Origin: Desulfurellaceae bacterium bin18
Lineage (GTDB): Bacteria > Desulfobacterota > Binatia > Bin18
Length of the DNA stretch: 64,000 nucleotides
Assembly: GCA_002238415.1 (NCBI GenBank)
Contig: MPMI01000014.1
Location: forward strand, 48,545-112,544
Reading direction: 5' to 3'
Shown: piece by piece, positions 53,322 through 59,330 of the stretch
Position numbering within the stretch: position 1 is the first letter of the stretch
How the letters are laid out: every line of letters starts with the position of its first letter
Notes under the pieces: generated by a model
What the model saw: the letters and a program-made list of their open reading frames with translations, nothing else
Database searches by the model: none
Told to the model about the DNA's origin: nothing
Made by a program: the position numbers and the translations under genes

Positions 53322-54698
53322 ATGAAATCAAAAAGCACAAAAGCCTGGGCCGGACGATTCGCTGCTGCGGCCGACCCGCGCATGGAAGCCTTCACGTCTT
53401 CGCTGGCCTTTGATCGACGCCTGGCTCGCTACGATATTCAGGGCAGCGTGGCCCACTGCCGGATGTTAGTCAGACAGAAGCTGCTGAGTCGTGCCGAGGG
53501 ACAGAAAATCCTGACCGGGCTTAAAAACATCGAGCGTGAGTTGGCGCAGGAGCGCTTTCCCTTTCTGGCGTCAGATGAAGACATTCACATGGCCATTGAG
53601 CGGCGGCTCACGGACAAAATCGGCGCGCTGGGCGGCAAGCTGCACACGGCCCGCAGCCGCAACGATCAGGTCTTGCTGGATGTACGCCTCTTTGTGCGTG
53701 ACGAGATCGCGGCGATTCACAAACTCCTCAGCCGCTTGCAGAAACGGCTGGCCCGAGTGGCCAAGCGACATCGGGCTATTGTCCTGCCCGGCTATACCCA
53801 TCTCCAGCGTGCCCAGCCGGTGCTGCTGGCCCACCATCTGCTCGCCTATCACGAAATGTTCAGCCGTGATGTCGAACGTTTGCAGCAGTGCGGCGAGCGC
53901 GTAAATGTCCTGCCCCTGGGGGCAGGAGCGCTAGCCGGTACCACGCTGCCGATTGATCGCGCCTATGTTGCACGGTTGCTCGGTTTTGCCCGGGTGAGTG
54001 AAAACAGCCTGGATACGGTGGCCGACCGGGATTTTGTGGTCGAGTTTCTGTCCTGCGGGGCGATCCTGGGGATGCATCTCAGCCGTTTGTCCGAAGAGCT
54101 TGTGCTGTGGTCGAGCAGTGAATTCGGCTTTATTGACTTACCGGATGCCTTTTCGACCGGCAGTTCCATGATGCCCCAAAAAAAGAATCCGGATGTCCCG
54201 GAAATTATTCGCGGCAAAACGGGTCGCCTGTACGGCAACCTGTTCGCTCTGTTGACCGTGCTCAAGGGATTGCCGCTGACCTATAATCGTGACCTGCAAG
54301 AGGACAAGGAACCGCTGTTTGACACGGTAGACACGCTCAAGGGGATTCTGACTGTCCTTGAGCCCATGCTCGGGCAGTTGCGCTTCCGTACCGAGCGACT
54401 GACTGAGGCGGCGCTGGGCGGATTCATGCTGGCAACCGACGTCGCCGACTATCTGGTTGAGAAGAAGCTGCCATTTCGTCAGGCCCATAGCGTTGTCGGT
54501 GCGGTGGTCCAGTGGTGCGTGGCCGAGGAAAAAGAGCTCCACCAGTTGACGCTTCAAGAATGGCGGCAGTTTTCTCCCTTGTTCGAGGCTGACCTGCTGC
54601 CGCGCCTCAGCCTGGAAGCCGCGGTCGAGCGCCGTCAGTCCTATGGCGGGACGGCCCAAAAGAATGTTGAGCGTCAGCTTCGCTCGGCAGGAGTATGA
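53322..54698 (+). CDS. argH: Argininosuccinate lyase
   Basis: 458 residues; makes arginine and fumarate. Family signature GSSMMPQKKNPDVPEIIRGK, with KAWAGRFAAAADPRMEAFTS at the start, RSRNDQVLLDVRLFVRDEIA and PGYTHLQRAQPVLLAHHLLA. Ends four bases into the lipoprotein gene, so translation is coupled. Confidence 0.97.
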   Translation: MKSKSTKAWAGRFAAAADPRMEAFTSSLAFDRRLARYDIQGSVAHCRMLVRQKLLSRAEGQKILTGLKNIERELAQERFPFLASDEDIHMAIERRLTDKIGALGGKLHTARSRNDQVLLDVRLFVRDEIAAIHKLLSRLQKRLARVAKRHRAIVLPGYTHLQRAQPVLLAHHLLAYHEMFSRDVERLQQCGERVNVLPLGAGALAGTTLPIDRAYVARLLGFARVSENSLDTVADRDFVVEFLSCGAILGMHLSRLSEELVLWSSSEFGFIDLPDAFSTGSSMMPQKKNPDVPEIIRGKTGRLYGNLFALLTVLKGLPLTYNRDLQEDKEPLFDTVDTLKGILTVLEPMLGQLRFRTERLTEAALGGFMLATDVADYLVEKKLPFRQAHSVVGAVVQWCVAEEKELHQLTLQEWRQFSPLFEADLLPRLSLEAAVERRQSYGGTAQKNVERQLRSAGV

Positions 54699-55156
54699 CC
54701 GTGCTGAGGCAATACGCTCTCGCCGGTCTGCTTGGGGCAGGTGCGCTCCTCCTGCTGGTCTCCGCCTGTGGGCATAAAACAGATATTCGTCCTCCCTCGC
54801 TCGTTGCGCCCGAAGCGATTGGTGATTTAGCCTTGACCTTAGGAGACCATGGCGTCACGCTACGCTGGGGCCGTCCCCAACGCTACGCCGATGGCAGCCA
54901 GATGGACGACTTGGGCGGATTTGTGGTACTACGGGCGCAACGAGATGGGGCGGGCGGGCAGCCCTTCACCCGGCTGGCGCTGGTTCCGGTAGAAGACCGT
55001 GATCGCTTTCAACAAGAGAAGCGGTTCAGCTATACGGACGAGCCGCTGACGGCGGGTACCCTGTACCGCTATCGCGTCCTGGCCGTCACCCTGGGCGGCT
55101 ATTTGGGGGATGTCTCCAATACGGTTGAGCTGGGCTGGCAGTGGAAGGCAGTAGGC
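54695..55156 (+). CDS. Lipoprotein with fibronectin-III-like domain, no own stop codon (in frame with dapF)
   Basis: Starts at ATG 54695, four bases inside argH. First 24 residues are a lipoprotein signal (LGAGALLLLVSACGHK, lipobox LVSAC), followed by an FN3-like segment of about 120 residues (IGDLALTLGDHGVTLRWGRP to YLGDVSNTVELGWQWKAV). Small lipoproteins sit between argH and dapF in many deltaproteobacteria. Here no stop codon occurs before the dapF ATG, so a 433-residue fused reading exists; see the separate note. I mark it up to the base before the dapF ATG. Confidence 0.7.
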
Positions 55157-55996
55157 ATGAAACTTCCGTTTACCAAGATGCACGGTATCAGCAACGACTA
55201 TATTTATGTCAATGCGTTCGACACCCAGCTTTCCGACCCTGCCAGGGTTGCCCGGCAGGTGAGCCAGCGCCGAACGGGTATCGGTGGGGATGGGCTTATT
55301 CTGATCTGCCCGTCGGATACGGTCCATGCCCGTATGGAGATGTATAACGCGGATGGCAGTCGCGGTGAGATGTGTGGCAACGGGATTCGTTGCGTTGGGA
55401 AATATCTCTACGACCACGGGATCGCGACCGACAATCCGCTCCGGGTGGACACCGACGTCGGGCTGAAAGTGCTCTTTCTCGAAGTTGAAGACGATAGCGT
55501 GTCCCGCGTGACAGTCGATATGGGCGAGCCCATCCTGGATGGGCCGCAAATCCCCGTTGCCGCAGAAGGCCGCATTGTGAATCAGCCGCTGCATGTGGAC
55601 GGACAAGCGTACGCTGTGACCTGCGTCTCTATGGGGAATCCGCACTGTGTCACCTTTGTCGATGACGTTGAGGCTATCGAGCTGGAAAAAATCGGTCCTC
55701 AGTTTGAGCGTCACGCCTTCTTTCCCAACCGGGTCAATACCGAATTCATTCAGGTGGTCAGTCCGTCCGAACTGAATATGCGGGTGTGGGAACGTGGCTC
55801 CGGTGAAACCTGGGCGTGTGGCACCGGAGCCTGCGGGGCGGCCGTGGCCGCGGTCCTCAACCAGAAATCCGAGCGCCGGGTCACCGTCCACCTGCGCGGG
55901 GGTGACCTGGAGATAGAATGGCGCGCCGAAAATAACCATGTCTATATGACCGGCGCAGCGGAAGAAGTCTTTGAAGGAATGGTCGAAGTCGAGTAG
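55157..55996 (+). CDS. dapF: Diaminopimelate epimerase
   Basis: 279 residues; inverts LL- to meso-diaminopimelate for lysine and peptidoglycan. Motifs: MKLPFTKMHGISNDYIYVN, GIGGDGLILICPSD, GEMCGNGIRCVGKYLYD (first catalytic Cys) and RGSGETWACGTGACGAAVAA (second Cys). Normal length, which supports its own start at ATG 55157 (with GGAAGG upstream) in spite of the open in-frame connection with the lipoprotein. Confidence 0.95.
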   Translation: MKLPFTKMHGISNDYIYVNAFDTQLSDPARVARQVSQRRTGIGGDGLILICPSDTVHARMEMYNADGSRGEMCGNGIRCVGKYLYDHGIATDNPLRVDTDVGLKVLFLEVEDDSVSRVTVDMGEPILDGPQIPVAAEGRIVNQPLHVDGQAYAVTCVSMGNPHCVTFVDDVEAIELEKIGPQFERHAFFPNRVNTEFIQVVSPSELNMRVWERGSGETWACGTGACGAAVAAVLNQKSERRVTVHLRGGDLEIEWRAENNHVYMTGAAEEVFEGMVEVE

Positions 55997-58597: not shown

Positions 58598-58651
58598 AAA
58601 GAGGAAACGTGTCCCGCATCTCCAGGCTGTCGGAGGACACGTTTCCTCTTT
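58598..58651. promoter_or_regulatory. Long perfect hairpin in the leader of the selenoprotein gene
   Basis: AAAGAGGAAACGTGTCC (58598-58614) pairs perfectly with GGACACGTTTCCTCTTT (58635-58651), 17 base pairs around a 20-base loop; A and T runs flank it. It lies between aat and the AhpD-like gene, 83 bases before the latter's ATG, in a divergent gap where no ordinary terminator is needed. It could be an attenuator, a terminator for an upstream transcript, or a repeat element. Confidence 0.6.
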
Positions 58652-58733
58652 TCATCAGCGTGGCTGCCTGCCGCTTGCTTTTTGTCAAAAAATCGCACAA
58701 GAGAAGGGGCAGAGTAAAAGAAGGAGGAATCCC

Positions 58734-59330
58734 ATGGATCGGGTGAGCAAGGTTCCCTTTGATCAGGTTGACGTCGAACTCCAGGCAATTATGCGTGAAT
58801 ACGACCAGGAACTCGGTGGGTCGGAGTTCGTGCAGGTGTTTGCCCACGCGCCTGAGGTGTTCAAGTCGTTTATCAATTTCTATTTCCCATTGGTGTCAGG
58901 CGAGCGGGGCAATGTCGATGTCAAACTGACCGAGTTGGCCCGCCTCAAGGTGGCCGAGCGCAACGACTGCAATTTATGAATGCACGCCCGGTTTGCCTTG
59001 GCAAGGCAACAAGGAGTGACGGAAGAACTGATTGCAGCGCTGCCCCAGTACGATACCAGTGAACTCTTTACACCGCGCGAGAAAGCGGCCATTCGTTTTG
59101 CGGATATTCTTGCCGGTGACCACCGTCAGGCTTCACCCGCGTTGTTTGATGCTTTACGTGAGCATTTTACAGAGCCGGAAATCCTGGAACTGGGCTGGCG
59201 GATTGTGACCTTTGTCGGCTACGGCCGGTTGATTCATGCCCTCGGTCTGGAGATTGGACAGACCTGCCCGCTACACAACGCAGAGGCTGCTCCAGGGCAG
59301 GAGACGCAAGCCTCCGCTCAAGGGGCGTAA
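58734..59330 (+). CDS. AhpD-like (carboxymuconolactone decarboxylase family) selenoprotein with CxxU motif
   Basis: Read as one 198-residue protein with selenocysteine at residue 82 encoded by TGA (58977-58979). The upstream part ends ELARLKVAERNDCNL, then UGA, then MHARFALARQQGVTEELIAA; together this is the AhpD-type active site C-N-L-U with a following His, so UGA takes the place of the second cysteine of CxxC. Downstream: TPREKAAIRFADILAG and ELGWRIVTFVGYGRLIHALG, the normal rest of the family. A SECIS-like hairpin follows the UGA. AAGGAGGAAT precedes the ATG at 58734. Peroxide or thiol redox is the likely role. Ordinary gene callers will split it. Confidence 0.85.
58980..59010 (+). promoter_or_regulatory. 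Candidate bacterial SECIS element
   Basis: Directly after the UGA, TTGCC (58993-58997) pairs with GGCAA (59005-59009) around the loop TTGGCAA, which holds two Gs. The loop begins 19 bases after the UGA, inside the 16-37 base range known for bacterial SECIS hairpins. Stem is only five certain pairs, so it is a candidate. Confidence 0.6.

Follow-up and report, generated by a model that had tools for sequence, protein, structure and literature searches.

The window analysed here is a stretch of 64,000 nucleotides from Desulfurellaceae bacterium bin18 (contig MPMI01000014.1), and on its forward (+) strand, to which all coordinates below refer, it carries an AhpD-like gene of the CMD fold at 58734..59330 with an in-frame UGA as its codon 82. 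With considerable confidence we propose that this UGA is decoded as selenocysteine (Sec), directed by a hairpin that follows it, and that the product has a Cys79-x-x-Sec82 redox site. The segment is one gene of 198 codons with the UGA at the second Cys position of a CxxC motif; it starts 6 nt after a Shine-Dalgarno-like AAGGAGG (58721..58727, read from the sequence) and, with the UGA translated as Sec, gives 198 residues before a TAA stop. The first Cys of the motif, Cys79 (TGC, 58968..58970), is invariant in our protein alignment A1, and the UGA at 58977..58979 is assigned as a predicted Sec from its conservation and its Cys-containing relatives. An earlier reading made from the sequence alone had given the same coordinates, frame and peptide (...ERNDCNL-U-MHARFALARQQG), which re-reading and translation reproduced. 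The read-through protein matches the Pfam domain PF02627 (CMD) at 45.3 bits, against a gathering cut-off of 23, over residues 40-124, and the CMD domain therefore spans the UGA. Taken together, the conserved UGA, a covarying hairpin, selection on both halves of the gene and the Sec genes of the genome make Sec insertion at codon 82, as predicted from sequence, very likely.

The UGA codon and the selenocysteine machinery

A scan of genome contigs returned 16 relatives, the seven nearest of which (L002-L008; by title six Binatia or Binatota and one Deltaproteobacteria, all metagenome-assembled genomes) combine TGA at residue 82 with Cys at 79; the nine more distant (L009-L017) have CxxC. Alignment with Cys-containing homologues had been proposed as a check in the sequence-only reading, and Cys does stand at residue 82 in P0002-P0010 of the protein collection (62-68% identity, alignment A1). 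In four stored metagenomic entries (P0012-P0014 and P0016) this residue is given as Trp; they form one clade adjoining the UGA rows of the tree, and their Trp may reflect gene calling of UGA under genetic code 4. We extended the search to 395 genomes of the phylum, where 54 gave a match, to 58 relatives, where again 54 did, and to 7 genomes found by way of loci; from all of these we chose the loci with TGA at column 82, of which there are 61 different ones with the codon exactly at that column, down to approximately 25% identity. Among the fetched loci without TGA at column 82 there are 36 distinct contexts, 23 with Cys and the remainder mostly with Glu, and five further rows have Cys at 82 and an in-frame TGA at 177, 187 or 188.

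In a tree of 81 rows with five state changes, a 9-row Cys clade lies among the UGA rows, an arrangement that would fit, and may record, a change from Sec to Cys, at a weakly placed fork where several long branches meet. One member of this clade, P0006, is named Nevskia by its source. One locus, L151 (G412:C17:159000-160900), matched over residues 1-50 and 127-183 only, with the CxxU part absent, and is perhaps a broken or rearranged copy.

Selection was gauged on eight orthologues (our own, six congeners and one from another genus), for which the ratio of nonsynonymous to synonymous change (pN/pS) is 0.131 over codons 1-81 and 0.154 over codons 83-180. As such, both halves appear to be kept as protein by purifying selection. 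Codons 84-93 are unchanged in all eight, synonymous positions included, and this run of 10 is the longest in the gene, the second longest being 3. In three less diverged paralogue groups the unchanged stretches at the UGA are 8, 11 and 9 codons long; only one of these groups has the longest stretch of its gene there.

A search for selA, selB, selC and selD had been suggested from the outset, and all four are present in the genome (83 contigs, 96% complete): selA at 602.8 bits, selB at 382.1, selD at 310, and a tRNA-Sec (selC) at 70.7 bits with the anticodon tca according to ARAGORN. Because the cut-off of the tRNA-Sec model separates other tRNAs poorly (these reach 47-55 bits), we used such scores only above 65 bits. 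The organism's own SelD (L075 1208-4444) follows an NADH-dehydrogenase-like part in a single fused protein, and its active site carries Cys; fusions of Ndh and SelD with CxxC are mentioned in a passage of PMC2398784. Across 58 genomes, our own included and only the hits listed being examined, a checked UGA82 gene occurs in 26, and selA is above its cut-off in 25 of those 26; one (G437) of the 14 genomes without selA above cut-off has a UGA82 gene (Fisher p 0.0014, with genomes counted as independent despite their kinship). The count leaves outside it TGA-bearing hits in G432, G360 and G426 (fetched, unconfirmed) and one in G425. G437 combines its UGA82 gene with a tRNA-Sec at 81.4 bits and no selA match, and its missing selA is perhaps an assembly gap.

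The predicted SECIS hairpin

A predicted selenocysteine insertion sequence (SECIS) lies at 58993..59009, 20 nt after the UGA, where a perfect 7-bp stem (TTGCCTT/AAGGCAA) closes around a GGC triloop (59000..59002). With the U of UGA taken as position 1, the stem joins positions 17-23 to 27-33, and the hairpin is encoded by codons 84-93, which are identical in the eight orthologues. The sequence-only reading was right that a hairpin is present and too short in its description of it, having given a 5-bp stem and a loop of 7 nt. As quoted in a passage of PMC13188914, the model for bacterial SECIS elements has a loop of 3-9 nt with G at its first two positions, a stem of 4-16 bp, a spacing of 16-37 nt and a minimum free energy of at most -7.5. 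The earlier suggestion that the element be compared with a SECIS predictor is borne out to the extent that the present hairpin lies within the constraints quoted there: a loop of 3 nt that includes GG, 7 bp, a spacing of 20 nt and a minimum free energy of -14.0 kcal/mol for the 44 nt from the UGA.

The same element recurs among the relatives. Positions 24-25 are GG in 34 of 51 distinct UGA contexts (the loop rows from which alignment A2 was built, so that GG is invariant there), and these average 6.47 of the 7 pairs, against 2.06 in the same register for the 17 contexts without GG and 2.39 for the 23 Cys homologues. In the 27 of the 34 GG contexts that made up the covariation test set, 94.2% of cells pair and two-sided changes occur in 6 of the 7 pairs; the covariation score is 0.785, compared with 0.238 for shuffles and at most 0.218 for slid partners. 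When the loop, stem and spacing rules were applied together with a stem of at least 6 bp, they were satisfied by 52 of the 56 UGA contexts with 60 nt at hand, by 4 of the 23 Cys homologues and by 9 of all 36 contexts without TGA. They also hold for 184 of the 1123 TGAs, in whichever frame, that lie on the + strand of the window, so the rule-based test is weak when taken alone.

A covariance model was also built from A2. Within the window it scores this site at E 9.4e-11 and its second match at 0.087; across the whole genome, this gene and the genes on contigs C64, C7 and C77 come top (E <= 2.1e-6), and the next match stands at 0.0136. Three of these four top genes were in the training rows, and the fourth, that on C7, was left out with near-copies of it included. 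The fifth genome match (C13:894-931) has no TGA at the first position of the model and, by eye, no gene-like reading frame, and was set aside as chance. The hairpin is predicted to bind SelB.

Fold, function and alternative readings

Not all observations favour this account, and those that weigh against it should be considered together. The stem is not formed in the common register in 16 of the 17 UGA contexts without GG. The counts of pairs with two-sided change and of pair types are unremarkable, being reached by 54 and 327 of 500 shuffles, respectively. Folded as a single sequence, the hairpin is not distinguished from chance (z -1.25, a fold equalled by 24 of 200 shuffles), and comparison with Rfam brought no family for it, the one weak hit lying at another place on the opposite strand. 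The neighbouring genes, named from their translations, are uninformative on function, with aat upstream and a lipoprotein-like open reading frame and an APH-like gene downstream. Last, AhpD has a conserved His that follows the second Cys by four residues, and this His of the classical proton relay is missing here; Arg86 (58989..58991) stands in its place by alignment.

Two features of the surroundings are recorded for completeness. Between the aat-like and AhpD-like genes lies a perfect inverted repeat of 17 nt with 20 nt between its arms (58598-58651), terminator-like by eye, and an open reading frame of 433 aa at 54695-55996 appears, from its translation, to fuse a lipoprotein part to diaminopimelate epimerase (DapF).

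An AlphaFold2 model on alignment A1 has a mean predicted local distance difference test score of 86.1, and the best solved folds by Z are the AhpD-like 6k40 (20.2), 2oyo (19.9) and 2prr (19.1), followed by the debrominase Bmp8 (18.2). The AhpD relay is described in a passage of PMC3141380 as Glu118, Cys130, His132, Cys133 and His137, of which both Cys and the final His are given as invariant among the family members that it compared. When the sequences are aligned, the CxxC pair falls on Cys79 and residue 82 of the present protein, and the His of Pseudomonas aeruginosa PA0269 falls on Arg86. Compared with PA0269 and Mycobacterium tuberculosis AhpD, the gene has UGA in place of the second Cys codon and encodes Arg where they have the relay His. 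Glu67 lies 12 residues before Cys79, the spacing that separates Glu118 from Cys130, and stands in the place of the relay Glu. In AhpD the second Cys is the attacking one. Cys178 (59265..59267), which the 14 closest rows of A1 all have, is a possible third redox residue.

Given these features, the product would act in selenol/thiol redox chemistry, the likeliest role being that of a peroxidase or of an adaptor to one. With the conserved His missing, peroxidase activity is a guess, and with Arg86 in its place the acid-base chemistry probably differs from that of M. tuberculosis AhpD. The sequence of events we envisage is that SelB with Sec-tRNA(Sec) would read the UGA, that Sec82 would serve as the reactive selenol with Cys79 closing a selenenylsulfide, and that the enzyme would then reduce a hydroperoxide, or hand electrons to a peroxiredoxin, and be recharged by a thioredoxin- or lipoyl-type donor.

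It is conceivable, if unlikely, that the protein is a selenoprotein and no peroxidase, reducing some other electrophile such as a carbon-halogen bond in the manner of the CMD-fold debrominase Bmp8 (6ohi, 6ohj). The two are alike in the CMD fold and the CxxC arrangement, with Cys in Bmp8 for Sec, and Bmp8 is first by E-value in Foldseek. However, they are 16% identical, the three AhpD-like structures are ahead of Bmp8 by Z, and 6k40 is first by TM-score also; to our knowledge no substrate is common to both, and literature searches on the Bmp8 debrominase brought up nothing. A parallel between Cys82 of Bmp8 and Sec82 was dropped, as the alignment puts that Cys, the one mutated in 6ohj, at the first Cys of the motif, where it matches Cys79 and not Sec82.

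The remaining alternatives deny Sec altogether. That the UGA is a true stop, with a downstream ATG restarting a second short protein from a split gene or coupled pair, is suggested by the TGAATG found here, by an ATG adjoining the UGA in 18 of the 61 loci and by the C-terminal pieces that the protein collection stores alone for several relatives (e.g. P0011, of 116 aa, P0015 and P0018). We consider it very improbable, as 39 of the 61 loci have a codon other than ATG, GTG or TTG after the UGA, the CMD domain runs across the UGA and the hairpin covaries. Reading of the UGA as Trp or another residue, through a changed code or leaky read-through, would agree with the Trp stored in the four metagenomic entries noted above; nevertheless, 22 of the 61 UGA genes, the C7 copy of this same genome included, terminate in UGA, which therefore also acts as a stop, nine other close relatives have Cys rather than Trp, and selA, selB, selC and selD are present, leaving this reading with an extremely small likelihood. 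A pseudogene or a sequencing error, the latter named as a possible refutation in the sequence-only reading, has nothing to recommend it beyond the stop itself and can scarcely be credited, since the same UGA occurs in other assemblies, which makes an error very unlikely, and pN/pS after the UGA is 0.154.

Sister genes, annotation and significance

The gene is not alone in its genome, a circumstance that the sequence-only reading overlooked. PF02627 matches 16 places, 7 of them with a TGA inside, and all seven TGAs are the U of a CxxU motif: CNLU in this gene (on C36), CALU on C7, CQLU on C77, CLFU on C64, CHYU on C60, CPYU on C81 and CHYU on C20. Each of the seven has a hairpin of 6-8 bp within the loop, stem and spacing rules. 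A His four residues after the U is present in the genes on C60, C81 and C20 and absent from the other four. In each of six kindred genomes we counted 13-18 CMD places, 4-7 of which bear a TGA, with the position of the TGA checked for part of them only. It is tempting to speculate, at a likelihood we would put as low, that this Binatia lineage has assembled a battery of CMD CxxU selenoenzymes, seven of them in one genome, and that the four without the AhpD His no longer serve peroxide reduction and use their selenol differently, for instance to attack halogenated or other electrophilic compounds reductively.

AhpD-like CxxU selenoproteins are themselves a known kind, as the sequence-only reading had recognized. 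Their published record goes back to the Sargasso Sea survey of 2005, a passage of which describes them (COG2128, listed under TIGR01926; PMC1088965); the Global Ocean Sampling survey of 2008 gives 299 AhpD-like 1 and 70 AhpD-like 2 sequences (a passage of PMC2398784), and CxxU AhpD-like/CMD selenoproteins also appear in portions of the reviews PMC9312934 and PMC13188914. The likeness to the survey proteins, as described in those passages, lies in the CxxU motif, a bacterial SECIS after the UGA and widespread Cys homologues. Against TIGR01926 (peroxidase-related, COG2128-type) the present protein scores 47.8 bits, below the cut-off of 81.8, and it thus falls outside the curated bounds of that family, the Sargasso sequences being known to us by description only. 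The best NCBIfam match, NF053654 (GroundWater_YciW, a YciW-related (seleno)protein; residues 1-154), reaches 71.1 bits against a cut-off of 310, so the protein is not this equivalog, and no curated NCBIfam model matches it above its own cut-off. A search of the PLSDB plasmids gave 112 records, all below 60% identity. The expectation that automatic annotation would call two short genes holds in part only, by way of the C-terminal pieces stored alone; these pieces, together with the lack of an NCBIfam match over cut-off, suggest that such genes are probably often stored truncated.

What is new is accordingly modest: a further gene of a known kind, its position outside the curated NCBIfam cut-offs, and several such genes per genome. 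Our literature search found no selenoprotein paper for Binatota, selenocysteine occurring only in one reference title. For these uncultured Binatota, then, the present work adds a well-supported predicted selenoprotein gene together with six sister genes. Paralogues that have a covarying hairpin in common are good material for asking which SECIS features are required by SelB proteins other than the E. coli one, and likewise for asking about the role of Sec in a CMD enzyme without the relay His.
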